Source of the DNA: Candidatus Zixiibacteriota bacterium
GTDB lineage: Bacteria > Zixibacteria > MSB-5A5 > DG-27
Direction: 5' to 3'
Assembly (NCBI GenBank): GCA_030605835.1
Contig: JAUWHO010000010.1
Span: forward strand, 1-38,417
DNA: 38,417 bases
Shown here: piece by piece, positions 241 through 26,277 of the stretch
How the letters are laid out: each line of letters opens with the position of its first letter
Numbering within the stretch: position 1 is the first letter of the stretch
The notes under the pieces: generated by a model
The model's database searches: none
What the model was told of the DNA's origin: nothing
The model's input: only the letters and a program-made list of their open reading frames with translations
Position numbers and translations under genes: made by a program

Positions 241-2131
241 TGAAAAGGGGTACGGAGTATCCGACGGCATTGGAGCGGCTTGACAGTCCTCCCTTGTCGT
301 GGGTGTAAAGCCGGTAGCAGTAACTCTGTCCCTTGATCAAATCCGGGTCGATAAACTCCCCGCTGTCCTGGTCAGTTTCTATCGTCAGCAAAAGGTCATC
401 GTCGCCGACGCTGGCGGTGTCGCTCCCGTCTAATCTGTATAGGCGGTACGATTCGAAATCGTTTTCATCATTTAAGCTCCAGGTCAGTTTCAAGGAATCG
501 GAGTTGACCAGCTGGGGAGTTAAGAGTATGGAGGCCTCCGGGGGTGTATTCTCCAGGGTGGTGCCGGAAACCAGGTTGGAGGCCGAAAAGAGTCCCCCCT
601 GGTCGTATGTCATCACCCGGTAATAGTAGGTCGAATCCCCGGCCAGGGTCGAATCCTTATAATAGGTGCTCTCCCGAGGGGCAAAGACCTTTATTAGAAT
701 CGAGTCAGAGAAGTCGCTCTGCTCCGCCCTGAAGAGCTGATAGTTGGCGAAATCTTCATCTTCGTTCTGGCTCCAGGAGAGGTTCAGTGTCCACCAGTTC
801 TCCCCGTAAGGTTGGTAGAGGACCGAAGGCTCCGGAGGTGAATTCTTGCCGGTGCGGGCGGAGTCCTCGTTGGAGGCGCTGTAGAGACTGTGATTGTCGA
901 AGAGGTAAACGACGTAGTGGTAGTAGATGTCCTCCACCAGGTTGGAATCGGTGTAAGTCGTGGTGCTGGGATCGTTGAGGGAGGTCACCAGGGTGGAGTT
1001 CAGATCCACTCCCGAGGAGGTAAAACGGTATATCGAATAGAAGGCGAACTGCTCGTCGTTCGACCTCGACCAGTGCAGGATGATCACCCCTCGACTCTCT
1101 GGAGGGGCATAGGGCTTGAAGAGGTGAACCGCATCGGGAGGGTTTCGGATCGTCACTGCGCCGGTGCCGACCAAATCGGTGGCAACATTCCCGGCTCGAT
1201 CGATGAAATGCCCCACGATCGGCTCATCTTCGGTCTCCAGGCCGATGGGAATGACGTAGTCGTGTTCGTAGATTCCGTCGTCAGACTCAGAATCGCCGAA
1301 GCTGCCGTCATCGTATAGCTTTATGCCGGTGACTAGTTCTCCTATGTCGACGCTGGCCTCCCCTTGAGTCTCCCCGCTCTCTAAGAGGAGATGCAGGGTG
1401 TCGCCAACTTGCAGAACCGCCCCTCCGGAGTTCTCACTAACCCTCAGGATTGAGGCCTTGGTGTCCAAGGTTATGGAATCGTGATAATGAGAGAGGGTCG
1501 GATTTCCCAACAGATCCCGAAACTTGGCATAGACCCTCTTTTCGCCGTCGCCGCTGGTGAGAAACCAGCTCCGGGTGGAGGCGAAATTGATCCAGACTCC
1601 ATCGGTGAAGGTCGAATCGTTGGAGAGCATAACATGATCGGTGCCCGGGGGAGCTATCAGGCTCAAGGTGACGGCGATCGTGTTGGTGAACTCGCTGCCG
1701 TTTTCGATCAGAACCCCGAAAGCGTCCGGGACGGCTTCAACCCGCCTGGATTTGTAACCCTCGAAACCGGAGGAATCGACACAGGAGATCTGATAGAAGT
1801 AACTTTGACCGTTGACCAGACCGTTATCGGTAAACTCCCTCGTGGCGGTGGAGTCAACCAACTCCGAGTGAGCATTGCTGGAGTCGGAGCGGTAGATTCT
1901 GAACCGGTAAGTGCTGCTATCTGAGACCTCCCAGGAGAGTTTTACCGACCGATCGCCCACCAGCGCCGTCAGATTCTGGGGAGTCGGCGGCAGATCGCTC
2001 ACCCCCTCCTCGGAGGAGAGAGGATCGAGCTTACGCCCGCAATTCGAAAGGGAAGAGACCAGACCAACCGCCAGAAAGAGAACGGCGACTGCAACAACGC
2101 TATTGAACCTTTTCCTCAGAATCTCTTGCAT
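215..2131 (-). CDS. Fibronectin type III repeat lipoprotein
   Basis: A 638-residue exported protein of unknown specific role, probably cell-surface or periplasmic. Residues 1-30 form a signal peptide ending at Cys31 (SLSNC), a weak lipobox. A fibronectin type III domain spans about 50-135; three more lie near 335-430, 435-530 and 535-628, each opening with a Pro-rich segment and carrying the W and YYYRV-type strand signatures. Between them (about 220-330) is a region with VGDTLHLLLE and DDGIYEHDY that resembles the choice-of-anchor domains of envelope proteins. The start codon lies inside the end of the upstream PEGA gene (16-bp overlap), implying translational coupling. The last residues (FRRQGRADR) are encoded by a purine-rich array, so the native C-terminus has probably been replaced. 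No enzymatic motif is seen. Confidence 0.85.
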   Translation of the reverse strand: MQEILRKRFNSVVAVAVLFLAVGLVSSLSNCGRKLDPLSSEEGVSDLPPTPQNLTALVGDRSVKLSWEVSDSSTYRFRIYRSDSSNAHSELVDSTATREFTDNGLVNGQSYFYQISCVDSSGFEGYKSRRVEAVPDAFGVLIENGSEFTNTIAVTLSLIAPPGTDHVMLSNDSTFTDGVWINFASTRSWFLTSGDGEKRVYAKFRDLLGNPTLSHYHDSITLDTKASILRVSENSGGAVLQVGDTLHLLLESGETQGEASVDIGELVTGIKLYDDGSFGDSESDDGIYEHDYVIPIGLETEDEPIVGHFIDRAGNVATDLVGTGAVTIRNPPDAVHLFKPYAPPESRGVIILHWSRSNDEQFAFYSIYRFTSSGVDLNSTLVTSLNDPSTTTYTDSNLVEDIYYHYVVYLFDNHSLYSASNEDSARTGKNSPPEPSVLYQPYGENWWTLNLSWSQNEDEDFANYQLFRAEQSDFSDSILIKVFAPRESTYYKDSTLAGDSTYYYRVMTYDQGGLFSASNLVSGTTLENTPPEASILLTPQLVNSDSLKLTWSLNDENDFESYRLYRLDGSDTASVGDDDLLLTIETDQDSGEFIDPDLIKGQSYCYRLYTHDKGGLSSRSNAVGYSVPLFRRQGRADR

Positions 2132-2892
2132 AGCTTGACCGTCAACTCTCCCTCTTTTAAGCTGAAGTCCCCTCCAACTTGCAGGTCCACCTTCTGGTCC
2201 GGGAAAAAAACGAGAGCGTCGATGACATTGTATGCCCAGACTGCGGCGGTCACTATCAGCAGATTGCGTTTCAGGGTCTCAGCATCGTAAGCCTTCTGGT
2301 GTTTATCCTCTAAGATGAGCCTGAGTCGGTTTCTCTCCTCGATGCTTCTGGCAGCCTGGTAATCACTAAGCGCCACCTCATATTTGTCTTCGCGATCCTG
2401 ATAGCGGAGTTCGGCTATGACTGAAGTCAGAACTGCTCCGTATCCCAAGGTGGAGATGATCACGCCCCGGGTCTTCTCCCCGGAGTAAAACTGTCCCCAG
2501 CCCGGCAGGATCAGTGACCTCCAGGCGGCTTTGAGGGGGGTTCTCGATTTCAGCTTTATGGTCAATCGACCCTGACTCGCCTGGGGGAAGGATAGTCTCC
2601 GCGAGTAAGTCTCGTATCCCGGCTTGGTGGCTTTGACGGAGTACGTTCCGACAAGCTGGTGTCTGACCAGAAAGGGGGTGGTGGCCACCAGGTCGTATTC
2701 CCCGGAGAAGTGGACCGTCGCCCCCGGGGGGTGGGACACAATCTCAAATCCCCCGGAGCCTTCTGGTATCGTCCCGCTCTCCTCAGCCTGTGACCAGCAT
2801 GAACCGTTCAGAAAAAGGACGAATGAGGTTAAAAGCAGGCTTCCCAGGAGCCACCGTGGACAATAGACTGTCCGTTTCCTTGACATAATCAA
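2116..2892 (-). CDS. PEGA-domain envelope protein with DUF5683-like C-terminus
   Basis: This 258-residue protein has an N-terminal signal sequence (about residues 10-35). A PEGA domain follows at about 48-117 (GGFEIVSHPPGATVHFSG, YSVKATKPGYETYSRRLSF). The C-terminal half has two hydrophobic segments around SLILPGWGQFYSGEKTRG and LLIVTAAVWAYNVIDALVFF, the pattern of DUF5683-type membrane proteins of Bacteroidetes-like genomes. PEGA domains are usually found in surface-layer or cell-envelope proteins. It is the first gene of a two-gene unit with the fibronectin type III lipoprotein. A 7-bp inverted repeat lies just upstream. The biochemical role is unknown. Confidence 0.85.
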   Translation of the reverse strand: MIMSRKRTVYCPRWLLGSLLLTSFVLFLNGSCWSQAEESGTIPEGSGGFEIVSHPPGATVHFSGEYDLVATTPFLVRHQLVGTYSVKATKPGYETYSRRLSFPQASQGRLTIKLKSRTPLKAAWRSLILPGWGQFYSGEKTRGVIISTLGYGAVLTSVIAELRYQDREDKYEVALSDYQAARSIEERNRLRLILEDKHQKAYDAETLKRNLLIVTAAVWAYNVIDALVFFPDQKVDLQVGGDFSLKEGELTVKLCKRF

Positions 2893-5291: not shown

Positions 5292-6317
5292 TTACGACTT
5301 TCGGCGGGCTCTCTTCGCCCGGATGCGGGCATTGTTGTGCTCTCTGAGAGTATTTGAGAAGATATGGCTGCCGTCACCCCTGGCGACGAAATAGAGGTAT
5401 CGCACCTCTGCGGGATAGAGCGCCGCCCTAATCGAAGCCATGCCCGGATTGGCGATCGGCCCCGGCGGCAGACCCCGATATCTATAAGTGTTGTAACGTG
5501 AATCCACCTGCAGGTCTTTAGTATAAAGCGGTCGGCCCAGATCCGGCAGGACATAGATCACCGTGGGGTCGCACTGCAGAAGCATCCTTCTTTTCAAACG
5601 GTTGTGATAGACTGCGGAGATTAACGGTCTCTCCTGAGCCAAGCCGGTCTCCTTCTCTATCATCGAGGCCAGGGTGACGATCTGATGAGGCGTGAAACCC
5701 AAATCCCGACAACGTTCCCGCAAGCTGTCAACGAAAGCCTGGTTGAACCTCGACAGCATGATCTCGATCACGCGCCTCGGTTTCTGCTCCCAGTAGAAAT
5801 TGTATGTGTCCGGAAAGAGGTAACCCTCCAGTCCGGGAATGGCCCACATCGGTCTCTCGATTTCGACTCCCAGTTGATGGGCAACGGTATCGCTGTAAGC
5901 CAGGGAAACGAATTCGGCGGAGTCAAGCTCCACCTCTTTTTTGAGGATGGAGGCGATCTCCTTTATGGTCAATCCCTCCGGGATGGTGACGAATATGGTG
6001 GCGTTGCCGCCCTTTCCCAGAAGGCTGTAAATATCGGCAATGCTCCTGGTTTTCGAGAAATCGTATTTGCCGGCTTTGATACTCTTGCTCTTTCCTAAGA
6101 CCTGGCCGAAGAAGACAAACCTCGGCTCTTCCCCGATAACGCCTTTGCCTCTGAGGAGGCAAGCCACCTCGGTCAGGGCTAGACCTCGAGGGATCTTCAA
6201 GTAATCCAGCTCCTCGAAAGCCTCACCCCTTTTGATGGGACGGTAGTAGAGGTGGCCCAAGATGACCACGCAGAACAGAATGAATCCGATCAGGAGTTTT
6301 ACCAGGAGCTTGATCAT
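5292..6317 (-). CDS. mltG: Endolytic peptidoglycan transglycosylase MltG
   Basis: MltG cuts nascent glycan strands at the inner membrane and helps set glycan length. The 341-residue protein has one N-terminal membrane anchor (residues 4-24), a LysM-like region (about 40-110) and a catalytic YceG domain. Signatures include the catalytic Glu motif ASMIEKET (about residue 220), YHNRL, LQCDPTVIY, YNTY and the C-terminal LYFVARGDGSHIFS followed by EHN. Its length matches the family. It overlaps ruvX by 4 bp (ATGA), implying translational coupling; neighbouring mltG and ruvX genes are also known in Bacillus (yrrL and yrrK). The stop is followed directly by a purine-rich array. Confidence 0.95.
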   Translation of the reverse strand: MIKLLVKLLIGFILFCVVILGHLYYRPIKRGEAFEELDYLKIPRGLALTEVACLLRGKGVIGEEPRFVFFGQVLGKSKSIKAGKYDFSKTRSIADIYSLLGKGGNATIFVTIPEGLTIKEIASILKKEVELDSAEFVSLAYSDTVAHQLGVEIERPMWAIPGLEGYLFPDTYNFYWEQKPRRVIEIMLSRFNQAFVDSLRERCRDLGFTPHQIVTLASMIEKETGLAQERPLISAVYHNRLKRRMLLQCDPTVIYVLPDLGRPLYTKDLQVDSRYNTYRYRGLPPGPIANPGMASIRAALYPAEVRYLYFVARGDGSHIFSNTLREHNNARIRAKRARRKS

Positions 6318-6727
6318 CTGGAGTCGAGGTAGCTCTGCAGGATCTCGGCGGCGGCTAAGGAATCGACTTTCCTTTTGTGCCTTTTCAGTCTGAATTCCGC
6401 CTGACGCATTTTTTTAAGCGCAACCTGGGTGGTCAATCTCTCATCGTAACCTTTTACCGGCACCGAGAGTTCCACGCTCAGTTTTTGGAGGAAAAGCTTT
6501 ACCTCTTTGGTTTTGGCGCTCTCGCTCCCTTTCAGGGTCGTAGGTATGCCCACTACCACCAGACCGACCTGTTCGGAACGGATGAGTTCACTCAAGTGTC
6601 GGAGGAGCTCTTTCTGGTTTCGAGCTCTGTATGCCGGCAGCGGTAGAGACAATCTCCCCTCGGGGTCGGAGATGGCCAGGCCGAAGTTGTGCTCCCCGTA
6701 ATCTACTGCCAGGATGCGAGAGTTCAT
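6314..6727 (-). CDS. ruvX: Holliday junction resolvase-like protein RuvX/YqgF
   Basis: A 137-residue RNase H-fold nuclease, implicated in pre-16S rRNA maturation and possibly in Holliday-junction resolution. It carries the expected motifs: the N-terminal acidic DYGEHNFGLAIS, the central GIPTTLKGSE and the C-terminal YDERLTT followed by DSLAAAEILQSYLD. Length is normal. The gene sits 23 bp downstream of the NUDIX gene and overlaps mltG by four bases, so the three form one minus-strand operon. Confidence 0.93.
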   Translation of the reverse strand: MNSRILAVDYGEHNFGLAISDPEGRLSLPLPAYRARNQKELLRHLSELIRSEQVGLVVVGIPTTLKGSESAKTKEVKLFLQKLSVELSVPVKGYDERLTTQVALKKMRQAEFRLKRHKRKVDSLAAAEILQSYLDSR

Positions 6728-6750
6728 ATTCGGGTGACTTCGCCGTCAGC

Positions 6751-7443
6751 TTAGACCGGTCTACCAAACAGCTTCGAGAGGGCTCGGCGATGGGCTTTGA
6801 AGGCGATATTGGCGGGAAGCTTCTGATGTGAGAAAAAGCCGATGTCGGAGGCGTCGTCTCCGGGTTTCAGCTCCCCACCGACCACTTCGACGTTGTGGAG
6901 AATCAAGACCACCTTGGTGCGGGGATCGTCTCCGGCCTCATACACTCCGAAGATGTCTTTGACCTCCACTTTCAGGCCGGTTTCCTCTTCGAGCTCCCTC
7001 TTGGTGCAGTCTTCCGGGCTTTCGTCATTCTCCATGAAGCCGGCCGGGAGAGTCCACCCCCCTTTGCGGGGTTCATATTTTCTCTTCACCAGGAGGACCT
7101 TGCCCTCCTTGAGGATGACACCGCCACAGGCGGGGACGGGGTTGTTATACCAGACGAAGTCACAGTCGGGACAGGCCCAGCGGTGGCGGTCGTCGGAGAA
7201 CTTCTCCTCCAAGGGAGTGGCACAGTAAGGACAATAGCGGTATCTCTTCTCCATTGCGACAGAGTCGGACTCGCCCCCGGCAGGCTGGTGCAATCCTGAC
7301 TCATCTTCAGGCTTGAATACAACCGTTTTCTCCTTTTTACGATTGTAAACCTTTGTGGGTTCGTGCACCCTGGTTGCAGGGTTTCTGTCCCAACTGCGGC
7401 GGATCTTAGGTCGCTCGATCTCTATTTTCTCTTTTCTCTTCAT
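6751..7443 (-). CDS. Zinc-ribbon NUDIX hydrolase with N-terminal basic extension
   Basis: A nucleoside-diphosphate-linked pyrophosphohydrolase of unknown substrate. After residue 64 it is a standard zinc-ribbon NUDIX protein: CPYC and CPDC knuckles (about 70-95), then VPACGGVIL and a complete Nudix box (G-x5-E-x7-REL-EEE-TGL). The first 40 residues are extra: a basic module with ERPKIRRSWDRNPATRV and KVYNRKKEK, a pattern also seen as free small proteins, so this looks like a fusion. The upstream start is supported because promoter, leader and N-terminal codons are conserved in the truncated copy at 7881-8024. An internal start at Met64 would give the usual-length enzyme. First gene of the operon with ruvX and mltG. 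Confidence 0.88.
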   Translation of the reverse strand: MKRKEKIEIERPKIRRSWDRNPATRVHEPTKVYNRKKEKTVVFKPEDESGLHQPAGGESDSVAMEKRYRYCPYCATPLEEKFSDDRHRWACPDCDFVWYNNPVPACGGVILKEGKVLLVKRKYEPRKGGWTLPAGFMENDESPEDCTKRELEEETGLKVEVKDIFGVYEAGDDPRTKVVLILHNVEVVGGELKPGDDASDIGFFSHQKLPANIAFKAHRRALSKLFGRPV

Positions 7444-16664: not shown

Positions 16665-17321
16665 TCAGTCGCCCTCGCTGGGGTGCTGGTTCTGCTCTTC
16701 GGAGGTCTCGGAGCTATCGTCTGCGACTGTCGGCTGTTTCTCTTTCCCTCTGGAGACCACCACCTTGGAGTGGCGAATCACCTTCCCATTCAGCATGTAT
16801 CCTCTGTTGACCTCCTCTAAGATCACTCCCTCCTCAACCCCCTCCGAGGCCATCTGCACCACCGCCTCGTGCAGCTCCGGGTCGAACCTTTCTCCTTTGG
16901 CCTCGATCGGCTCCAGACCGTAACGCCCCAGGAGGTTTTGAAGGTTGGAGTCGATCATCTCCATCCCTTTATGGAAGCTCTCGAAGTCATCCGTGGTTCT
17001 GGCGCTCTCCAAAGCGCGTTCGAAATCGTCCAGGATGTGGAGCAATTGAGAGATCAGATCCTGGTTGGCACCTCTTATAACTAAAGCGAACTCCCGCGAG
17101 ACTCTCTTTTTGTAGTTGTCGAATTCCGCCGCCAGACGGAGGAAGCGATCCTCCCTCTCCTCCAGGAGTCTTTCAGCCTCCTCCAGCTTCTTCTCTAAGG
17201 AGAGCTCTTCTTTGACCTCCGCTTCCGATACGGAGGCCCCTTGGGTCTTTTGGTCTGGACTTAGCTCTGTCTTACCTTGATTTTGTTCAGACTTTTTTCG
17301 CTTGTCCTTTTTCTTGGTCAA
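16665..17321 (-). CDS. grpE: Nucleotide exchange factor GrpE
   Basis: GrpE releases ADP from DnaK in the heat-shock chaperone cycle. The 218-residue protein has a charged N-terminus, a long coiled coil (about 50-95; LEEAERLLEEREDRFLRLAA) with the signature EFDNYKKRVSRE, a four-helix part (LDDFERALE) and the beta-domain signature GEKFDPELHEAV-like GERFDPELHEAV with GYMLNGKVIRHSKVVVS. The C-terminus is acidic. The start lies 2 bp after the hrcA stop, so translation is probably coupled. dnaK and dnaJ, which commonly follow, are absent here. Confidence 0.97.
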   Translation of the reverse strand: MTKKKDKRKKSEQNQGKTELSPDQKTQGASVSEAEVKEELSLEKKLEEAERLLEEREDRFLRLAAEFDNYKKRVSREFALVIRGANQDLISQLLHILDDFERALESARTTDDFESFHKGMEMIDSNLQNLLGRYGLEPIEAKGERFDPELHEAVVQMASEGVEEGVILEEVNRGYMLNGKVIRHSKVVVSRGKEKQPTVADDSSETSEEQNQHPSEGD

Positions 17322-17323
17322 GT

Positions 17324-18373
17324 CTATTCACCAGGTTTTTGTGGTCCCGACAGCACCGCCGAGAGGAGCTTGGCGGTGTAGTCCACGATCGACACTAACT
17401 TCGAATAGGGCATCCTCGTCGGACCGATCACCCCGATGGTTCCCTTCACCTCTCCGGCAGAGTAGTTGGAGGTCACCAGACTGATGGTCTCGACTTCCTC
17501 GCACTCCGCCTCCCTGCCGATGGTTATGGTGATCCCCTCCTTGATTCCCTGACTGGAGACCAGTTCCACCAGGGTTTTCCGGGTCTCTATCAGTCTCATC
17601 AGGGAGAAGAGCTTCTCCCGGTCTCGGAATTCCGGCTGGTTGACCAGATTGGTGGTGCCGCCCAGGTGGACACCTTCGGGATCGATATCCTTCAGCATGT
17701 CGCTGGAGTAATCTAAGAACATCTTAATCAGTTTGGGGTCGGCCTCGAAGACCTCCTTGGTCCTCTGGCGGATGGTCTTTCTTATCTCCCCCAGACTTAA
17801 GCCCCCGAGCCTCTCGGTTAAAGCTCTGGAGGTGGCTTCGGCGGCTTCGGGGGTGAATCGGGATTCGACCTCCAGAAGCAGGGAGCGAACCAGACCGCCC
17901 CTGATGGTGAGCACCACCAAGACCTTGTTGTCCGCCACCGGCAGCATGTCTATGCGAGACAGCACTCCGGATTCGAAGCAGGGGGCAATGGTGACCCCCA
18001 GTTGTTTGGATACATAACCTAACACCTGAGAAGTCTGCTCTAAGATTCTCTCGATGTTCCCGCCTTCGGTGGCAAGCTCCTGGCGGATGGCCTCCTGCTG
18101 TTCAGTCGAGAGAACTTCCGGCTTCAGGAGGGTGTCGACATACTGGCGGTAGCCGAGGTCGGTGGGGACCCTCCCCGCGGAGGTGTGGGGCTGACTCACC
18201 AGCCCGGTCTCCTCTAAGTCCTGTAAGGTATTGCGGATGGTGGCGGCGCTCACCCCCAGTCTGCATTTGTTCGCCAAAACCCTGGAGCCGACCGGCTCCG
18301 CGGTGGCGATGTAATGCTCTATCAGCGCCCGCAGAACCCCCTTTTCTCTTGCAGTCAGATTCCCGAAAGCCAT
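17324..18373 (-). CDS. hrcA: Heat-inducible transcription repressor HrcA
   Basis: HrcA represses heat-shock operons, usually at the CIRCE element. The 349-residue protein has the N-terminal winged helix (TAREKGVLRALIEHYIATAE, with ATIRNTLQDLEETGL as recognition region), the GYR-Y signature and the C-terminal IGPTRMPYSKLVSIVDYTAK block. Length is normal. It is followed immediately by grpE. No CIRCE copy is seen upstream; a different palindrome overlaps the promoter. Confidence 0.97.
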   Translation of the reverse strand: MAFGNLTAREKGVLRALIEHYIATAEPVGSRVLANKCRLGVSAATIRNTLQDLEETGLVSQPHTSAGRVPTDLGYRQYVDTLLKPEVLSTEQQEAIRQELATEGGNIERILEQTSQVLGYVSKQLGVTIAPCFESGVLSRIDMLPVADNKVLVVLTIRGGLVRSLLLEVESRFTPEAAEATSRALTERLGGLSLGEIRKTIRQRTKEVFEADPKLIKMFLDYSSDMLKDIDPEGVHLGGTTNLVNQPEFRDREKLFSLMRLIETRKTLVELVSSQGIKEGITITIGREAECEEVETISLVTSNYSAGEVKGTIGVIGPTRMPYSKLVSIVDYTAKLLSAVLSGPQKPGE

Positions 18374-18763: not shown

Positions 18764-20236
18764 TTACGGGGAGCGTCTAATTGAATACTCGTAATGTTTC
18801 AGGTTCTCCCCCGCCCCCCTACCATAGTAATGCCATTTGGGGAAATTGAAATCAGAGGTAATGGACCTTGGCAACAAGAGAACCGCCTTCAGGAATGATT
18901 CCAGGTCAGGGATATTGTAGAGGTTAACCTCAAATCCCCATTTATCTATCTGATCCAGAAGCTGCCGCATATAAGGTGTCTTCCAATTAACGGAGAAGCG
19001 ATTTATCCCCCACCCTCTAAAAATATCGAGCATCTCCTTGGCTTTGTCGGGAACACTCAATATAATCGGGGTGAGGAAATCAATGGGGCACTGCTTTATC
19101 GCCCTAGGATAAGCTTTTGCCAGTTTACGAAAACGATCTTCCTGGAGTACCTCGACATTCCCATTGAACCATAACTGGGAGCTATCAAAACCGGAAGCCT
19201 TGAGCACCTCAACAATCTTGTCGATCAGTAGACCCCCTTCCTTGAGGTCAAGCTTCAAGGACTTGTCCATCTTCTTATGTAGTTTCAATATATGCTCTAG
19301 GAGAAGGAACTCCTCATGCTCCTGCATGGGGGTTCTCTCAAACGAATCATGCCGGAGTATTAAGTTGTCCCCATCCGGATCCATGCGCACATCGTATTCT
19401 GCCCAATGTATGTTGGAGGCGAGGAACTGCCTGAGGTTAGCCTCATCGTTGGCACCGTGCCAAACAAATTGCACGTGGCTTGGCAATGCCCTTTCGGGAA
19501 TCAACTCGGTTATGTCGTAAACCTTTCCACTCATCGTGCTACCGGGTAATCTTTTTCGCTTGGACTCAAAGATGGTATTGGCATGGAGTAGTAGAATCTC
19601 TCGGTATTCATCAATTTCCGAGACCGCCCTCAGGTTTTCAGGTTCGTTGTCCACGAATGCGAAAATACGATAACCGCCCTTTTGAAAATGACGCAGACCA
19701 GCAACCTTGCCCTCCGAGACCTTCATATCCCATCCATATGGGTTCATGTAAAGGAGGTCATCCGTAAAGCTGACCTTGTATTCTTCACCAAGCTTATTTA
19801 GAGAGCGCAGGGTATCGTTCCTGATGGACTCTGGTCTTCCGGTGTTCAAACCAACGTATGTGTTGGGCTGTATTTGAAACCACCGTATTACCTCCACAAC
19901 TCCTAAAAATGGGCGATGTGACTCCAAAATCGAAGTGGAAGACCAGCGATGCTCCAGGTACCAGTCGAAAATCTCCTTACTTTGCTGTCCTGGGATCTTC
20001 AACTGGCCTAAGAGTTCCTCCACTTGATTTTCATTAAAATTAATGTCAGACAGCTTTAAATCTTTAAAAAAGGCGGTGGAGTGACTCTTATCAAATAATT
20101 TAAGGATACGCAAAATCATATAGCGCATATCCAGAATAGTCCCATCAATATCGAAAACAAGCAGTAGCTTTTGTTCGGGATAAAGATCCCTCGTCTTCTG
20201 GTAATGCCGGGCTAGCTTCCTCATCCAGTTTTTCAT
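18764..20236 (-). CDS. HAD hydrolase fused to a menorin/FAM151-like (GDPD-fold) domain
   Basis: A 490-residue two-domain protein. Residues about 20-245 form a HAD phosphohydrolase: LLLVFDIDGTILDMR (DxD), the second motif GLNTGRPESIR and the DNEPENL motif IV. Residues about 255-480 resemble the menorin/FAM151 (DUF2181) branch of the GDPD TIM-barrel superfamily: FVWHGANDEANLRQFL, WAEYDVRM, ILRHDSF, SLKLDLKEGG and LWFNGNVEVL match the family order of HAVN, EADV, AHPP, KLDFK and WNADI. The fold suggests phosphodiester or phosphomonoester chemistry, but the substrate is unknown. It is a lone gene; codon usage appears more AT-rich than its neighbours, which may mean recent acquisition. Confidence 0.7.
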   Translation of the reverse strand: MKNWMRKLARHYQKTRDLYPEQKLLLVFDIDGTILDMRYMILRILKLFDKSHSTAFFKDLKLSDINFNENQVEELLGQLKIPGQQSKEIFDWYLEHRWSSTSILESHRPFLGVVEVIRWFQIQPNTYVGLNTGRPESIRNDTLRSLNKLGEEYKVSFTDDLLYMNPYGWDMKVSEGKVAGLRHFQKGGYRIFAFVDNEPENLRAVSEIDEYREILLLHANTIFESKRKRLPGSTMSGKVYDITELIPERALPSHVQFVWHGANDEANLRQFLASNIHWAEYDVRMDPDGDNLILRHDSFERTPMQEHEEFLLLEHILKLHKKMDKSLKLDLKEGGLLIDKIVEVLKASGFDSSQLWFNGNVEVLQEDRFRKLAKAYPRAIKQCPIDFLTPIILSVPDKAKEMLDIFRGWGINRFSVNWKTPYMRQLLDQIDKWGFEVNLYNIPDLESFLKAVLLLPRSITSDFNFPKWHYYGRGAGENLKHYEYSIRRSP

Positions 20237-20659
20237 ATTCTTTCCTCGTCTGCAAAATCGAACAATACTTCTTTGATAATATTCATCGACAGATTATCTT
20301 TTGGACAACAATTCAGAACGCTGCATGCAGGAGAGTGTTAACATCGATGTTGGTTTTGCTCTCGTTTGCTTGATTTTTCAACTTCCCCAGAGCCATAGAC
20401 TCAAAATGTCAAGAAACTTGTTTTTTCAAATAAAAATAACCTAACAAAATAAACCGAATTTAGCAGTTGTCAAGCGCTTTTTGTGCTCAGTTTATGATCT
20501 CTCTGGCGCTGCTTGTTCCAGAAAAAGTTTGCCTTTTCGTCATGAAAGATTATATTTATTTATAATAGGGGATGTTTTTGAAGAACTTCCTGACGTTATC
20601 TGTCAAGATGATGAGTCTTCGCTGAAAACTAAACCAAAACCTTAACCGAAGGAGCAGCC
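20237..20659. other. AT-rich divergent intergenic region
   Basis: No gene is seen. The right half carries the promoter of the first carboxypeptidase (20529-20556). No clear promoter for the divergent HAD gene was found. It is distinctly more AT-rich than the coding sequence on its right. Confidence 0.6.
20529..20556 (+). promoter_or_regulatory. Promoter of the first M14 carboxypeptidase, TTGCCT-16-TATATT
   Basis: The -35 TTGCCT (20529-20534) and -10 TATATT (20551-20556) have a 16-bp spacer about 105 bp upstream of the ATG. The tandem paralogue has TTGCTT-16-TATATT at 23533-23560 at a similar distance; the boxes are conserved while spacer and leader are not, which supports function. Confidence 0.6.
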
Positions 20660-23269
20660 ATGCCCTTGAAAACTGTCAAGCTTCCCAAGTGGGGGCTGCT
20701 GGTGGTCTTTCTGACTGCCGTCTTGCTCGTAGGGGGCACCTATGCGAAAACCATCTACAAGCAGGTGGAGGTCTACCCCCCGACTAAGGAGGATTTGAAG
20801 GAGTTCTTGCGGATGGGATTCGACCCCTCGGATGCGATGATATACGACGAGGGCAGAAGGGTGGTAGTGCCCTTAAACGACCGCGAGATGGAGCTTCTGA
20901 AATCAAGTGGTCTGGAATACCGGGTCTTGATCGAGGATCTGGAAAGCTACTACAGCTCCCAGTTCCTGGTGACCGCTGACATGGGGCCCTACACCTCCTT
21001 TTCGGAGATGGTCGATTCTCTGACCAACCTCCACAATCACCATCCCAACATCACCACCGATCTGATTGTCCTCGGCTATGGTCATGACGGCAACGAAGTT
21101 TACGCCATGAAGATCTCCGACAACCCGAACCTGCAGGAGGACGAACCGGAGGCACTTTACACCGGGCTGCATCACGCCAGGGAACCGATCTCCATGGAGA
21201 ACATTCTCTACTTCATGGCCTATCTCTGCAACAACTACGGAAGCGACCCGGACGTCACCTATCTGGTGGACAACCGCCAGCTGTGGTTCATACCTTGTCT
21301 CAATCCGGACGGTTATCTCTACAACGAGCTGACCAATCCCAGTGGGGGCGGGATGTGGCGGAAGAACCGTCGCGACAACGGCGGGGGAGTCTACGGCGTC
21401 GACCCGAATCGCAACTACGGTTACATGTGGGGATACGACAACCGCGGCTCCAGTCCCTATACCTGGTCGGACACCTATCGCGGCCCTTACGCCTTTTCAG
21501 AGCCGGAGAATCAGGCGGTGAGAGATTTCGCTTTGGAGCACGACTTCTCGGTGGCCATGAATGACCACACCCACGGCTACTACTTCCTCCTCCCCTGGGG
21601 ATACGAGGATATCTTCTGTGAGGAGCACGAGATGTTCAGAGGCATCGGAGAGGAGGCCGTCAGCCTGCTCTCACCTGGCAACTACGATCTGGGTACTGCG
21701 TGGCAGTGTCTTTACAACGTCAATGGGGAGGCTAACGACTGGTACTTCCACGATCTTGGAACCTTCGCCTACACTCCGGAGATCGGGGAATCTTTCTGGC
21801 CCGGCGGCTCAAGAATCCTGCCCCTCTGCGAGGAGATGCTGCCGGTCAATCTCTTCTTCGCTGAGATTGCCGACAATCCCTGGCAGATGATGAGAGTGTG
21901 GGCGCCCACCATCGATCCTCTCGGAAGCCAACCGAGCGGCAACTACACCGTCAGCTGGACTCTCCCCGGCGGTGACCTCTATCCGGACAAATACGAGCTG
22001 CAGGAGATGACCGGACCCTCTACTATCACCGACGATGCCGAGTCCGGTTCCGACAACTGGGTCTTCAAGAATTTCTCCCGGTCGAGCTCTCGTTCCTACA
22101 GTGGCAGCTATAGCTTCTGGTCCGGCTATCAGAACAGTTACAATGCCACCACGACCTCCCTGGTCCCCTTTAGGGTACAAAGCGGCACCCAGCTCAGCTT
22201 CCGTTTGTGGTATAGGATAGAGTCCGGCTACGACTTCGGCTTTGTGGAAGTCTCCACCGACGGCCACGACTGGGAAGTCTTGGACAGCTTCACCGGAACC
22301 AACACCTCCTGGCCTTTAAAGACCTACAACCTTAGCTCTTACGCCGGCCAGAATCTGTTCGTCCGTTTCCGTCTGGACACCGACATCGGATCTACCAGCT
22401 ACGGAATGTATGTTGACGACATCCACCCGGTCGACATTTTCGATAACGTCATCACTCTCTCCGACAACATCACCGAAAACTATTACGATGTCACCGGCAG
22501 AACTCCCGGAACCTACTATTATCAGGTCCGGGGCCACAACCGCACCGGCTGGGGCAATTTCTCGCCTCGGGAGGAAGCGATCGTAACCCAGGGCGCACTG
22601 GTTACCATTGAGCTCACTCCTCATCAATACTACGTTGCCCGCGGCGAGAGACTGACTTACACTGCGGAGGCCACTAACCAAACCGGCCAGTCCCAGTCCT
22701 TCGATTACTGGGCTATGGTGACCTTGCCCAACGGCAACCCCTACGGTCCCGTTTACGGACCCAAGAACTATAGTCTGAGCCCCCACCAGAGCGGCCAGGG
22801 AACCGTGGGCAAGAGAGTCCCCATGGGAGCACCTATTGGCGTCTACACTTACACCGGCAACGTGGGAGATTATCCTGACGATGTCTGGGACTCAGATGAG
22901 TTCGACTTCGAGGTGACCGGAAAGGCCGGCGCCACATCTGGCTCCAATGAGTGGGAAGTGGTCTACACCGACGGATTCTGGGGGAGCAGTCAGGAGGCCT
23001 TGCCGAAAGAGTTCGCTCTCTCAGGCAACCATCCCAATCCCTTCAACGCCCGGACGGTAATTGAGTATCAGTTGCCTGTAAGTGGTCACGTCAAGCTCGA
23101 AATATACAACCTCTTCGGACAAAAGCTTGAAACTCTGGTGGATACCGAGCAGGAGGCTGGATACCGGTCAGTTAGCTGGGATGCTTCAGAGGTCTCCTCC
23201 GGTCTCTATTTCTACAAGCTGACTGCTGGAGACTTCACCGAAGTTAAGAGCATGACCTTGCTGAGATAG
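20660..23269 (+). CDS. Secreted M14 zinc carboxypeptidase with C-terminal sorting domain (paralogue A)
   Basis: An 869-residue exported metallopeptidase that should remove C-terminal residues from peptides outside the cell. A signal peptide (1-29) precedes a propeptide-like region. The M14 domain (about 105-400) keeps the zinc ligands His172 and Glu175 (HHAREP), His303 (NDHTHGYYF), the Arg-rich substrate site (WRKNRR, DPNRN) and the catalytic Glu374 (TPEIGESFWPG). Next come an immune-inhibitor-A/MAM-like beta-sandwich (about 450-600; DDAESGSDNW), a fibronectin-like strand set, a diverged Ig-like domain (about 645-755) and the T9SS type A-like sorting domain (about 780-869; FALSGNHPNPFN, GLYFYKLTAGDFTE). 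GGAGCA precedes the ATG. Paralogue B follows in tandem. Confidence 0.94.
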   Translation: MPLKTVKLPKWGLLVVFLTAVLLVGGTYAKTIYKQVEVYPPTKEDLKEFLRMGFDPSDAMIYDEGRRVVVPLNDREMELLKSSGLEYRVLIEDLESYYSSQFLVTADMGPYTSFSEMVDSLTNLHNHHPNITTDLIVLGYGHDGNEVYAMKISDNPNLQEDEPEALYTGLHHAREPISMENILYFMAYLCNNYGSDPDVTYLVDNRQLWFIPCLNPDGYLYNELTNPSGGGMWRKNRRDNGGGVYGVDPNRNYGYMWGYDNRGSSPYTWSDTYRGPYAFSEPENQAVRDFALEHDFSVAMNDHTHGYYFLLPWGYEDIFCEEHEMFRGIGEEAVSLLSPGNYDLGTAWQCLYNVNGEANDWYFHDLGTFAYTPEIGESFWPGGSRILPLCEEMLPVNLFFAEIADNPWQMMRVWAPTIDPLGSQPSGNYTVSWTLPGGDLYPDKYELQEMTGPSTITDDAESGSDNWVFKNFSRSSSRSYSGSYSFWSGYQNSYNATTTSLVPFRVQSGTQLSFRLWYRIESGYDFGFVEVSTDGHDWEVLDSFTGTNTSWPLKTYNLSSYAGQNLFVRFRLDTDIGSTSYGMYVDDIHPVDIFDNVITLSDNITENYYDVTGRTPGTYYYQVRGHNRTGWGNFSPREEAIVTQGALVTIELTPHQYYVARGERLTYTAEATNQTGQSQSFDYWAMVTLPNGNPYGPVYGPKNYSLSPHQSGQGTVGKRVPMGAPIGVYTYTGNVGDYPDDVWDSDEFDFEVTGKAGATSGSNEWEVVYTDGFWGSSQEALPKEFALSGNHPNPFNARTVIEYQLPVSGHVKLEIYNLFGQKLETLVDTEQEAGYRSVSWDASEVSSGLYFYKLTAGDFTEVKSMTLLR

Positions 23270-23664: not shown

Positions 23665-26277
23665 ATGCCCTTAAGAAGTGCCAAGCTTTCCAGGTGGGGG
23701 CTGTTGGTGGTCTTTTTGATTGCCGTCTTGTTTGTGGGGGGAACCTATGCGAAAACCATCTATAAAGAGGTGGAGGTTTACCCTCCAACCAAGGAGGACT
23801 TAAAACAGTTCTTGCGGATGGGATTCGATCCCTCGGATGCGATGATATACGACGAGGGCAAAAGGGTAGTGGTTCCCTTAGACGATCGGGAGATGGAGCT
23901 TCTGAAACAAACCGGTCTGGACTACCGGGTCCTGATTGAGGATTTAGAGAAACATTACAGCTCTCAGTTCCTGGCAACCGCCGACATGGGACCCTACACC
24001 TCCTTTTCGGAGATGGTTGACTCTTTGACCAACCTCCACAATCACCATCCGGACATCACCACTGATCTGATTGTGATAGGCTACAGCCATGAAAACAACC
24101 CTGTCTACGCCATGAAGATCTCTGACAATCCCAACCAGCAGGAGGACGAACCGGAGGCCCTTTTTGAGGGAATGCAACACGCCCGGGAGCCGATCTCGAT
24201 GGAGAACCTTCTCTACTTCATGGCCTATCTCTGCAACAACTATGGCGAAGACCCGGAGGTGACCCATCTGGTGGATGAACGCCAGTTGTGGTTCATACCC
24301 TGCGTCAACCCCGATGGTTATCTCTACAACGAGCAGACCAACCCCAATGGGGGTGGTATGTGGCGCAAGAATCGCCGCAACAACGGCGGCGGCTCCTACG
24401 GCGTGGACTGTAACCGCAATTGGGGCTACAAGTGGGGATACGACAACTATGGTTCCAGTCCCGATCCCTGGTCGAATACCTACCGCGGTCCCTATGCCTT
24501 CTCGGAACCGGAGAACCAGGCCTGCAGCACCTTTGCCATGGAACACAACTTCGCCACGGTGATGGACGACCACACTTATGGTTACTACTTCCTCTCTCCG
24601 TGGTGCTATGACGACTTCTTCACCCCGGATCAGGACATGTTCGTGGGTCTCGGGGAGGAGGCGGTCGAACTGCTTCTGCCCTCCAATTACCGGCGCGGCT
24701 GTAGCTGGCAGGTGCTCTATAACTCCAACGGAAACGGCAAGGATTGGTATTACGGGAGAACGGGAGCCTTCACCTTCACCCCGGAGATCGGGGAGTCGTT
24801 CTGGCCCGGCGGTTCGCGGATCATCCCGCTGTGCGAGGAGATGCTACCGGTTAACCTTTTCTTCGCCGACGTCTGCGCCAATCCCTGGCAGATGGTAAGA
24901 GTCAGACCACCGGCTATCGATTCCCTCGGAACTGTTCCGAGTGGCAACTACACCGTCAGTTGGAACATAACCTCCGGAGATACCCTTCCCGATAAATACG
25001 AGCTTCAGGAGATGACCGGGCCTTCCACCATCACCGACGACGCCGAGTCCGGCTCCGGCAACTGGCATTTCAAGAGCTTCTCCAGATCCAGCTCCCGTTC
25101 TTACAGTGGGAATTACAGCTTCTGGTCCGGCTACGCCAACTGCTACAACGCCACCATGACCTCCATGACTCCCATCAAGGTTGAAAGTGGCACCCAGCTT
25201 AGTTTCCGCCTCTGGTATCAGATAGAGACTAACTACGATTTCGGCTTTGTGGAGGTCTCCACCGACGGTTACAACTGGGACATTTTGGATACCTATACCG
25301 GCAGCAACACCTCCTGGTCTCTGAAGACCTACAATCTAGGCTCCTACGCCGGTGAATATCTCCAGGTCCGCTTCCGCTTCGAGACCGACGCCGGATACAC
25401 CAGCTACGGGATGTACATTGACGACATATACCCGGTGGACGTTTTCGATAACGTCATCACGCTGTCGGACAATATCACCGAGGACTATTACGAGGTCACC
25501 GGCAGGACTCCGGGAACCTATTATTACCAAGTCCGGGGACACAACCGCACCGGCTGGGGCCATTACTCCCCACGGGAGGAGGTAATCGTAACTGAAGGTA
25601 CGATTGTCAGCATTGAGCTTGTCCCTGATGATCCGCCGGTTGTGGTTCCACAAGGTGGATCCTTCGGCTACACCGGCACCGTCACCAACAACACCGACGA
25701 GGTTCAATACGTCGACATCTGGATCATGGCCTACGTCCCGGGGATGGGGTGGCACGGACCCTTCAAGAACTACAACAATGTGAGATTCAGCCCCGATCAG
25801 GTCCGCAGCGCTCATCTCAACCAGAGAGTTCCCAATGTGGCACCGGTGGGAGACGGCTACCTCTATTGTGGCTACGTGGGGGACTATCCCTCCACGGTGA
25901 TAGATTCCTCCTGCTTCCCGTTCGAGGTCATCGCCGGCGTACCAACCGAAGCCGGTGAGGGCGGTTGGGTTCAGAATGGCTCATTCCTGGAGGGAGATTT
26001 CGCTGACCTTCCCTCTGAGTTTGCCCTTTCGAGCAATTATCCCAATCCCTTCAATGCCAGCACCGTGATCAGCTATGAGTTGCCGGCAACCAGTTACGTC
26101 AAGCTGGAGGTGTACAACCTCTTCGGACAGAAAGTTGCCACATTAGTGAACGGCAAACAGCAGGCAGGATACAGGTCTGTCACCTGGGATGCTTCAAAGG
26201 TTTCTTCGGGTCTCTATTTCTACAAGCTGACCACTGCTGATTTCAGTGAGACCAGGAGAATGATGCTAGCCAAATAA
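23665..26277 (+). CDS. Secreted M14 zinc carboxypeptidase with C-terminal sorting domain (paralogue B)
   Basis: An 870-residue tandem paralogue of the preceding gene, nearly identical over the first 130 residues. Zinc ligands His172, Glu175 (QHAREP) and His303 (DDHTYGYYF) and catalytic Glu374 (TPEIGESFWPG) are retained. Differences cluster around the active-site entrance (SPWCYDDFF in place of LPWGYEDIF), suggesting a changed substrate preference. The C-terminal half differs in one important way: its Ig-like domain (about 645-755; IELVPDDPPVVVPQGGSFGY) is of the type shared by the propeller and beta-helix genes downstream, not the type in paralogue A. The sorting domain ends GLYFYKLTTADFSETRRMM. 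Confidence 0.94.
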   Translation: MPLRSAKLSRWGLLVVFLIAVLFVGGTYAKTIYKEVEVYPPTKEDLKQFLRMGFDPSDAMIYDEGKRVVVPLDDREMELLKQTGLDYRVLIEDLEKHYSSQFLATADMGPYTSFSEMVDSLTNLHNHHPDITTDLIVIGYSHENNPVYAMKISDNPNQQEDEPEALFEGMQHAREPISMENLLYFMAYLCNNYGEDPEVTHLVDERQLWFIPCVNPDGYLYNEQTNPNGGGMWRKNRRNNGGGSYGVDCNRNWGYKWGYDNYGSSPDPWSNTYRGPYAFSEPENQACSTFAMEHNFATVMDDHTYGYYFLSPWCYDDFFTPDQDMFVGLGEEAVELLLPSNYRRGCSWQVLYNSNGNGKDWYYGRTGAFTFTPEIGESFWPGGSRIIPLCEEMLPVNLFFADVCANPWQMVRVRPPAIDSLGTVPSGNYTVSWNITSGDTLPDKYELQEMTGPSTITDDAESGSGNWHFKSFSRSSSRSYSGNYSFWSGYANCYNATMTSMTPIKVESGTQLSFRLWYQIETNYDFGFVEVSTDGYNWDILDTYTGSNTSWSLKTYNLGSYAGEYLQVRFRFETDAGYTSYGMYIDDIYPVDVFDNVITLSDNITEDYYEVTGRTPGTYYYQVRGHNRTGWGHYSPREEVIVTEGTIVSIELVPDDPPVVVPQGGSFGYTGTVTNNTDEVQYVDIWIMAYVPGMGWHGPFKNYNNVRFSPDQVRSAHLNQRVPNVAPVGDGYLYCGYVGDYPSTVIDSSCFPFEVIAGVPTEAGEGGWVQNGSFLEGDFADLPSEFALSSNYPNPFNASTVISYELPATSYVKLEVYNLFGQKVATLVNGKQQAGYRSVTWDASKVSSGLYFYKLTTADFSETRRMMLAK

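Follow-up and report, generated by a model that had tools for sequence, protein, structure and literature searches.

The window, a stretch of 38,417 nucleotides from a Candidatus Zixiibacteriota genome, encodes a single protein in which a HAD phosphatase is joined to a menorin-like TIM barrel of the GDPD superfamily. Relatives of this fusion are rare and scattered among prokaryotes, and at part of the loci their genes lie near genes of inositol metabolism or UgpC-like sugar importers that are lacking from control regions of the same genomes. The activity, substrate, order of steps and role that we infer are, on balance, probably those of a cytoplasmic, bifunctional, UgpQ-like enzyme that scavenges organic phosphate and inositol.

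A preliminary description of this DNA had proposed a complete HAD phosphatase fused to a menorin/FAM151-like domain. The ORF runs on the minus strand from ATG to stop and encodes 490 amino acids with no internal stops, and the five motifs named for the C-terminal half (HGAND, EYDVRM, LRHDS, SLKLDLKEGG and WFNGNVE) are all found in its product. Judged by eye, the protein has no obvious signal peptide. The features of the locus are:

18764..20236, minus strand: HAD and GDPD/menorin-like fusion protein, one ORF of 490 aa, with 31 full-length relatives
19499..20236, minus strand: HAD phosphatase domain, residues 1-246
20138..20152, minus strand: HAD motif I, D29-I-D31-G-T33
19841..19843, minus strand: HAD motif II, T132
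19706..19708, minus strand: HAD motif III, K177
19649..19651, minus strand: HAD motif IV acid, D196 (in DNEP)
18767..19498, minus strand: GDPD-superfamily/menorin-like TIM barrel, residues 247-490
19445..19462, minus strand: W259-H260-G-x-N263-D264, with H260 standing, by motif order, where GDPDs have the catalytic His of HRG
19391..19399, minus strand: E280-x-D282, matched by hhalign to the metal-binding E-x-D of GDPDs
19346..19351, minus strand: H296-D297, with H296 matched by hhalign to the second GDPD His
19241..19255, minus strand: K328-x-D330-x-K332, matched by hhalign to the GDPD E-x-K
18830..18859, minus strand: C-terminal family signature T460-S-DFNFPKWH469
20237..20659, no strand: AT-rich divergent intergenic region, GC 36.6%

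The phosphatase assigned to the N-terminal half was borne out. The domain has the Rossmann-like fold and the DxD, S/T, Lys and acidic motifs I-IV of the HAD superfamily, to which it belongs, and carries a helical insertion (residues 38-106) between motifs I and II. Modelled alone with AF2 it reached a pLDDT of 92.7, and the model matched HAD phosphatases broadly in Foldseek (E 8.5e-6) and VIA, the mannitol-1-phosphate phosphatase MtlD among them, with none singled out as the closest family. PF03767 matches all 32 family members (best E 2.4e-8), and PF03767, PF00702 and PF13419 match 31-32 of the 32; on the window protein each scores below its cut-off (21.2 bits against 27 for PF03767). The fold and motifs are thus those of known HAD phosphatases (PF03767 acid phosphatase B, the MtlD phosphatase domain, CbbY, phosphoglycolate phosphatase), but identity to these is 9-18% among the matches listed.

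Profile searches and structure prediction of the C-terminal half, as the preliminary description had suggested, returned a GDPD-superfamily barrel with a conserved active site. The whole protein was modelled with a pLDDT of 88.6, falling below 50 from residue 466 onward and so within the C-terminal signature, which is near-invariant in the family alignment. The best Foldseek matches of the full model are GDPDs (3ks6_B, E 3.5e-8), and VIA superposed the barrel on GDPDs with Z 19.9 and an rmsd of 2.6 over 203 residues. When the barrel was compared by hhalign with 16 canonical GDPDs drawn from genomes carrying the fusion family, the probability was 96.5% (E 7.8e-10), and E280/D282, H296, D330 and K332 were paired with GDPD catalytic columns, D330 with the Glu and K332 with the Lys; H260 lies outside the aligned range. 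The TIM barrel and the order His, E-x-D, His, E/D-x-K place the domain in the GDPD/PLC-like phosphodiesterase superfamily. A canonical GDPD identity was rejected by sequence and kept at the level of the superfamily on the VIA and hhalign results: PF03009 matches none of the 32 members at E<=1, and WHG replaces HRG. Sequence searches of solved structures gave chance-like matches only, and a search of NCBIfam yielded nothing useful.

The best Pfam family for the barrel half is PF10223 (Menorin), which matches 16/32 members with a best E of 8.3e-5, a score estimated at about 23 bits and thus apparently under the Pfam threshold. The window protein itself scores 13.8 bits against a gathering score of 25, below the level for family membership, and at E<=1e-3 the family search found PF10223 in none of 58 related genomes and in no control genome. 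The barrel motif order H-(E-x-D)-H-(K-x-D-x-K) is one that we take menorin/FAM151 proteins to share. The earlier assignment therefore holds for the motifs and the best match and falls short for the window protein's own score; the sequence justifies the label "menorin-like" but does not prove the protein to be a menorin.

The residues expected of both active sites are conserved. In the 32-row alignment D29, D31, T132, K177 and D196 of the HAD half are invariant, as are H260, E280, D282, D330 and K332 of the barrel; H296 is kept in 30/32 rows (N in L019, D in L031). Three divergent members beyond this alignment retain the five HAD residues, motif I included, but have damaged barrels: L148 (8094-9521, minus strand) has lost nearly all barrel catalytic residues, L147 (8387-9874, minus strand) carries D282H and H296R, and L055 (6759-8297, plus strand) carries H260Q. 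Their barrel halves are possible pseudoenzymes, to judge from these replacements. The phosphatase half is thus the more constrained. The two-step reaction of a diesterase and a phosphatase proposed at the outset is plausible where both sites are intact, and cannot apply to every member.

A search of genome contigs gave 35 loci, 31 of them with full-length relatives of the fusion at 48-67% identity. In all 31, which come from other genomes, the two halves stand in one frame without internal stops, and we rejected an assembly or frameshift artefact on this ground. The record titles of the relatives name Aminicenantes, Acidobacteria, Nitrospirota, Desulfobacteraceae, Syntrophaceae, Chloroflexi, Planctomycetota, a cyanobacterium, Spirochaetes, Marinimicrobia, TA06 and two archaeal bins, and the fusion is not special to the Zixiibacteriota genome of the window. 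It is rare and patchy, being present in 2/396, 2/400, 7/295 and 4/345 genomes of the phyla sampled and in 3/132 of the window's own phylum, where each count includes the centre genome. The family tree requires several changes for Chloroflexota and Nitrospirota. Viral contigs and plasmids gave no match. The patchy distribution and low GC of the gene are consistent with the horizontal transfer suggested earlier, which we consider likely but not proven, as bins may contain foreign contigs. A barrel-only homologue, an ORF of 260 aa with its barrel residues intact, occurs in L057, from the window's own class. Two remnants were also seen: L032 (7881-8426) holds about the last quarter of the gene inside a long contig, and L035 (8001-8377) holds residues 185-246 and 423-487 only, in two frames, adjoining an intact inositol-1-phosphate synthase and methyltransferase.

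The genes next to the relatives point to the likely pathway of the enzyme. Linkage was scored at 41 loci, 40 of which show the gene by phmmer; L035 has fragments only and was counted because its neighbours are syntenic. Controls were regions of the same genomes. Sixty were taken, of which L128, the same contig as L007, was dropped since it contains the fusion gene. Of the 59 used, many are contig ends of less than 17 kb, and the 60 total 664 kb against 499 kb for the loci. About 80 neighbour entries were annotated, some proteins twice, from 397 listed ORFs and a further set. Inositol genes (myo-inositol oxygenase (MIOX), inositol-1-phosphate synthase, iolG/E/D) were found at 11/41 loci and at 0/59 controls (p 2e-5), with reference queries picked after the neighbourhoods had been viewed. 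Dropping the loci that supplied queries left 8/38 (p 3e-4), and also collapsing near-identical lineages left 5/35 (p 0.006); the two linkage tables used stand at 7/37 and 5/35. The stretch around the gene lacks an inositol gene at the other 30/41 loci, and neither of two out-of-sample loci (L147, L148) has one.

MIOX occurs in 2/22 genomes searched, adjoining the fusion gene each time; it lies upstream in L006, downstream in L015. Inositol-1-phosphate synthase and a methyltransferase lie near the gene at five loci, four from Nitrospirales (L005, L009, L030 and L035, the last with its decayed remnant) and one cyanobacterial (L014), where a glycosyltransferase accompanies the pair. The iolG/E/D genes are found at L024, L025, L027 and L033; those of L033 and the iolG of L024 pass curated cut-offs, and those of L025 and L027 do not. 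L025 has the order gene, iolG, iolE, iolD-like, with iolD truncated at the contig end. In L024 iolE, iolG, a binding protein, two permeases, an ATPase, a 311-aa ORF and the fusion gene follow one another on one strand. This 311-aa protein, which stands after the importer genes, recurs in L026 (L024, 7073-8008; L026, 3-968; both plus strand), has no Pfam match, and its frame overlaps the start of the gene. Searches of whole genomes found iolD above cut-off in 11/41, mostly on contigs other than that of the gene. The L007 genome has such an iolD on a different contig, and upstream of its fusion gene lies an aldehyde dehydrogenase (5503-6957, plus strand) that could be IolA-like. The window genome has no MIOX and no iolD above cut-off, and its inositol-1-phosphate synthase is unlinked.

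UgpC-like CUT1 sugar ABC importers with at least two components stand at 9/41 loci and 0/59 controls (8/40 with the query locus dropped, p 4e-4). UgpC model scores, against a cut-off of 432 bits, were 451.8 for L005, 408.9 for L022 and 399.8 for L028, and in L028 a canonical GDPD lies between the importer and the fusion gene. A UgpC-like ATPase also adjoins the gene in out-of-sample L147. This Ugp-type scavenging context, in which the gene is encoded with a CUT1 importer, is absent from the window. ABC genes in L023 were rejected as a sugar importer, being of the amino-acid type, and are excluded from the counts.

Phosphate genes were found near the gene at 5/41 loci and 0/59 controls (p 0.01) with the query loci included; with these dropped, Pst linkage stood at 2/38 against 0/59 and was not significant (p 0.15). 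As a statistic the phosphate linkage is no more than suggestive. The arrangements include PsiE-gene-PstS-PstC-PstA in L010 and, in L018, a PhoR/PnpS-like kinase, a porin (Porin_O_P), the gene and an aquaglyceroporin (MIP), beside PstS and PstC. PstA lies near the gene in L012 and L031, a PstS-like fragment in L003, and a PhoR-like kinase with a PstC-like permease about 6-7 kb from the gene in out-of-sample L148. L008 was rejected as a pst locus: its genes (872-2420, minus strand), about 5.6 kb from the fusion gene, are phnK and phnL of C-P lyase, a link to organic phosphorus. In two Syntrophobacterales/Syntrophaceae bins the gene is followed directly by one for a conserved protein of some 820 aa (L019, 9820-12279; L031, 9542-12013; both plus strand), to which no Pfam family matched at E<=1e-5.

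In the scheme that we propose, an inositol-containing phosphodiester would enter the cell through a Ugp-like ABC importer. The GDPD/menorin-like barrel, with a divalent metal, would cut the diester to a phosphomonoester, either inositol phosphate or glycerol phosphate, and the HAD half would then dephosphorylate the monoester to phosphate together with inositol and glycerol. These products may feed inositol catabolism through iol genes or MIOX, or be reused. The leading candidate substrate is glycerophosphoinositol, the deacylated head group of an inositol lipid, which would jointly explain the importer, the phosphate genes, the aquaglyceroporin of L018 and the inositol genes. If correct, microbes known mostly from metagenomes would have a one-protein route by which lipid head groups yield phosphate and inositol.

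Three other readings each cover part of the data. The UgpC-like importers, the canonical GDPD of L028, the aquaglyceroporin of L018 and the Pst/PsiE/PhoR context would all be expected of a general glycerophosphodiester scavenger that unites UgpQ and a glycerol-3-phosphatase in a single chain and does not favour inositol head groups. We give this reading a modest chance, as it leads one to expect neither the inositol genes at 11/41 loci against none of the controls nor the position of MIOX beside the gene in both genomes that carry it. The retention of the five HAD residues in every full-length row examined, alongside the degraded barrels of L148, L147 and L055, could instead mean that the protein is mainly a phosphatase of inositol phosphate or another polyol phosphate, in which the barrel binds substrate or has a regulatory function and keeps little or no activity of its own. 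The match to MtlD and the inositol-1-phosphate synthase at five loci agree with such a role. We think it unlikely, given five barrel residues invariant in the main alignment and the intact barrel that occurs by itself in L057.

The linked inositol-1-phosphate synthase would be as compatible with biosynthesis as with catabolism, and the synthase and methyltransferase of the Nitrospirales loci, with the same pair beside a glycosyltransferase in the cyanobacterial locus, could reflect synthesis or turnover of an inositol lipid or solute (for example, recycling of a di-inositol or glycerol-inositol phosphate solute) instead of scavenging. Other loci, with their importers, phosphate-starvation genes, MIOX and iol genes of catabolism, make this the least probable of the readings. 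Scavenging of inositol phosphodiesters is the most economical account and our best reading.

The HAD, GDPD and Menorin families are known; a search of the open-access literature returned no account of the bacterial menorin-HAD fusion, of where it occurs or of its inositol context, in keeping with the earlier suggestion that the fusion may be undescribed. The barrel shares its fold (Z up to 19.9) and its E-x-D, H and E/D-x-K columns with GDPDs (PF03009; UgpQ/GlpQ), and the gene resembles UgpQ in its genomic company of ABC importer and phosphate regulon, but it differs in having no PF03009 match, HG for HRG, D330 for Glu, and the HAD fusion. In E. coli, PhoB and CRP control ugpBAECQ and also psiE (PMC4415409). 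Where an importer is linked, the likeness to ugpBAECQ lies in the pairing of a CUT1 importer with a cytoplasmic phosphodiesterase, in a setting that responds to phosphate and carbon. In the fusion, by contrast, the phosphatase step is joined to the diesterase, inositol genes are neighbours, and the importer is Ugp-like but not proven to be Ugp. Menorin/FAM151 proteins (PF10223, formerly DUF2181) share the barrel motif order and are the best Pfam match, whereas the fusion is sub-cut-off, prokaryotic, cytoplasmic-looking and HAD-fused and has a C-terminal DFNFPKWH...GRGxG signature.

FAM151 proteins were placed in the PLC-like phosphodiesterase superfamily by HHpred in a study that gives their substrates as unknown (PMC6965129). 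FAM151B is required for mouse retinal function, and worms need menorin for their dendrites to branch (PMC6965129). It is possible, though we put it forward tentatively, that a rare transferred prokaryotic family carries out both phosphate-release steps on inositol phosphodiesters within a single chain and that its barrel corresponds in prokaryotes to the menorin/FAM151 branch of animals. If so, FAM151 proteins would gain a definite candidate reaction, the hydrolysis of inositol phosphodiesters. The strong clue from the genomic setting of this prokaryotic relative supplies substrates on which FAM151B and menorin can be tested.

In the window the gene is solitary, as first described, although many of its relatives have inositol, sugar ABC transporter or phosphate genes nearby. 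Its GC of 45.8% and GC3 of 0.548 are the lowest among the 17 window ORFs measured, which upholds the lower GC claimed for it. A promoter-like site, TTGACA-16-TATTTT, is directed toward the gene at 20473-20446 in the intergenic region; it is a consensus match, of which 7 were observed against 4.3 expected from shuffles. The neighbours are an hrcA-like gene and a divergently transcribed M14 peptidase. Downstream, 16665-18373 (minus strand) holds grpE-like and hrcA-like ORFs, both recognised by eye. On the other side, two closely similar ORFs of about 870 aa each lie in tandem (20660-23269 and 23665-26277, plus strand), and the nearer encodes an M14 zinc carboxypeptidase that also carries a MAM domain and a tail for Por-type secretion.
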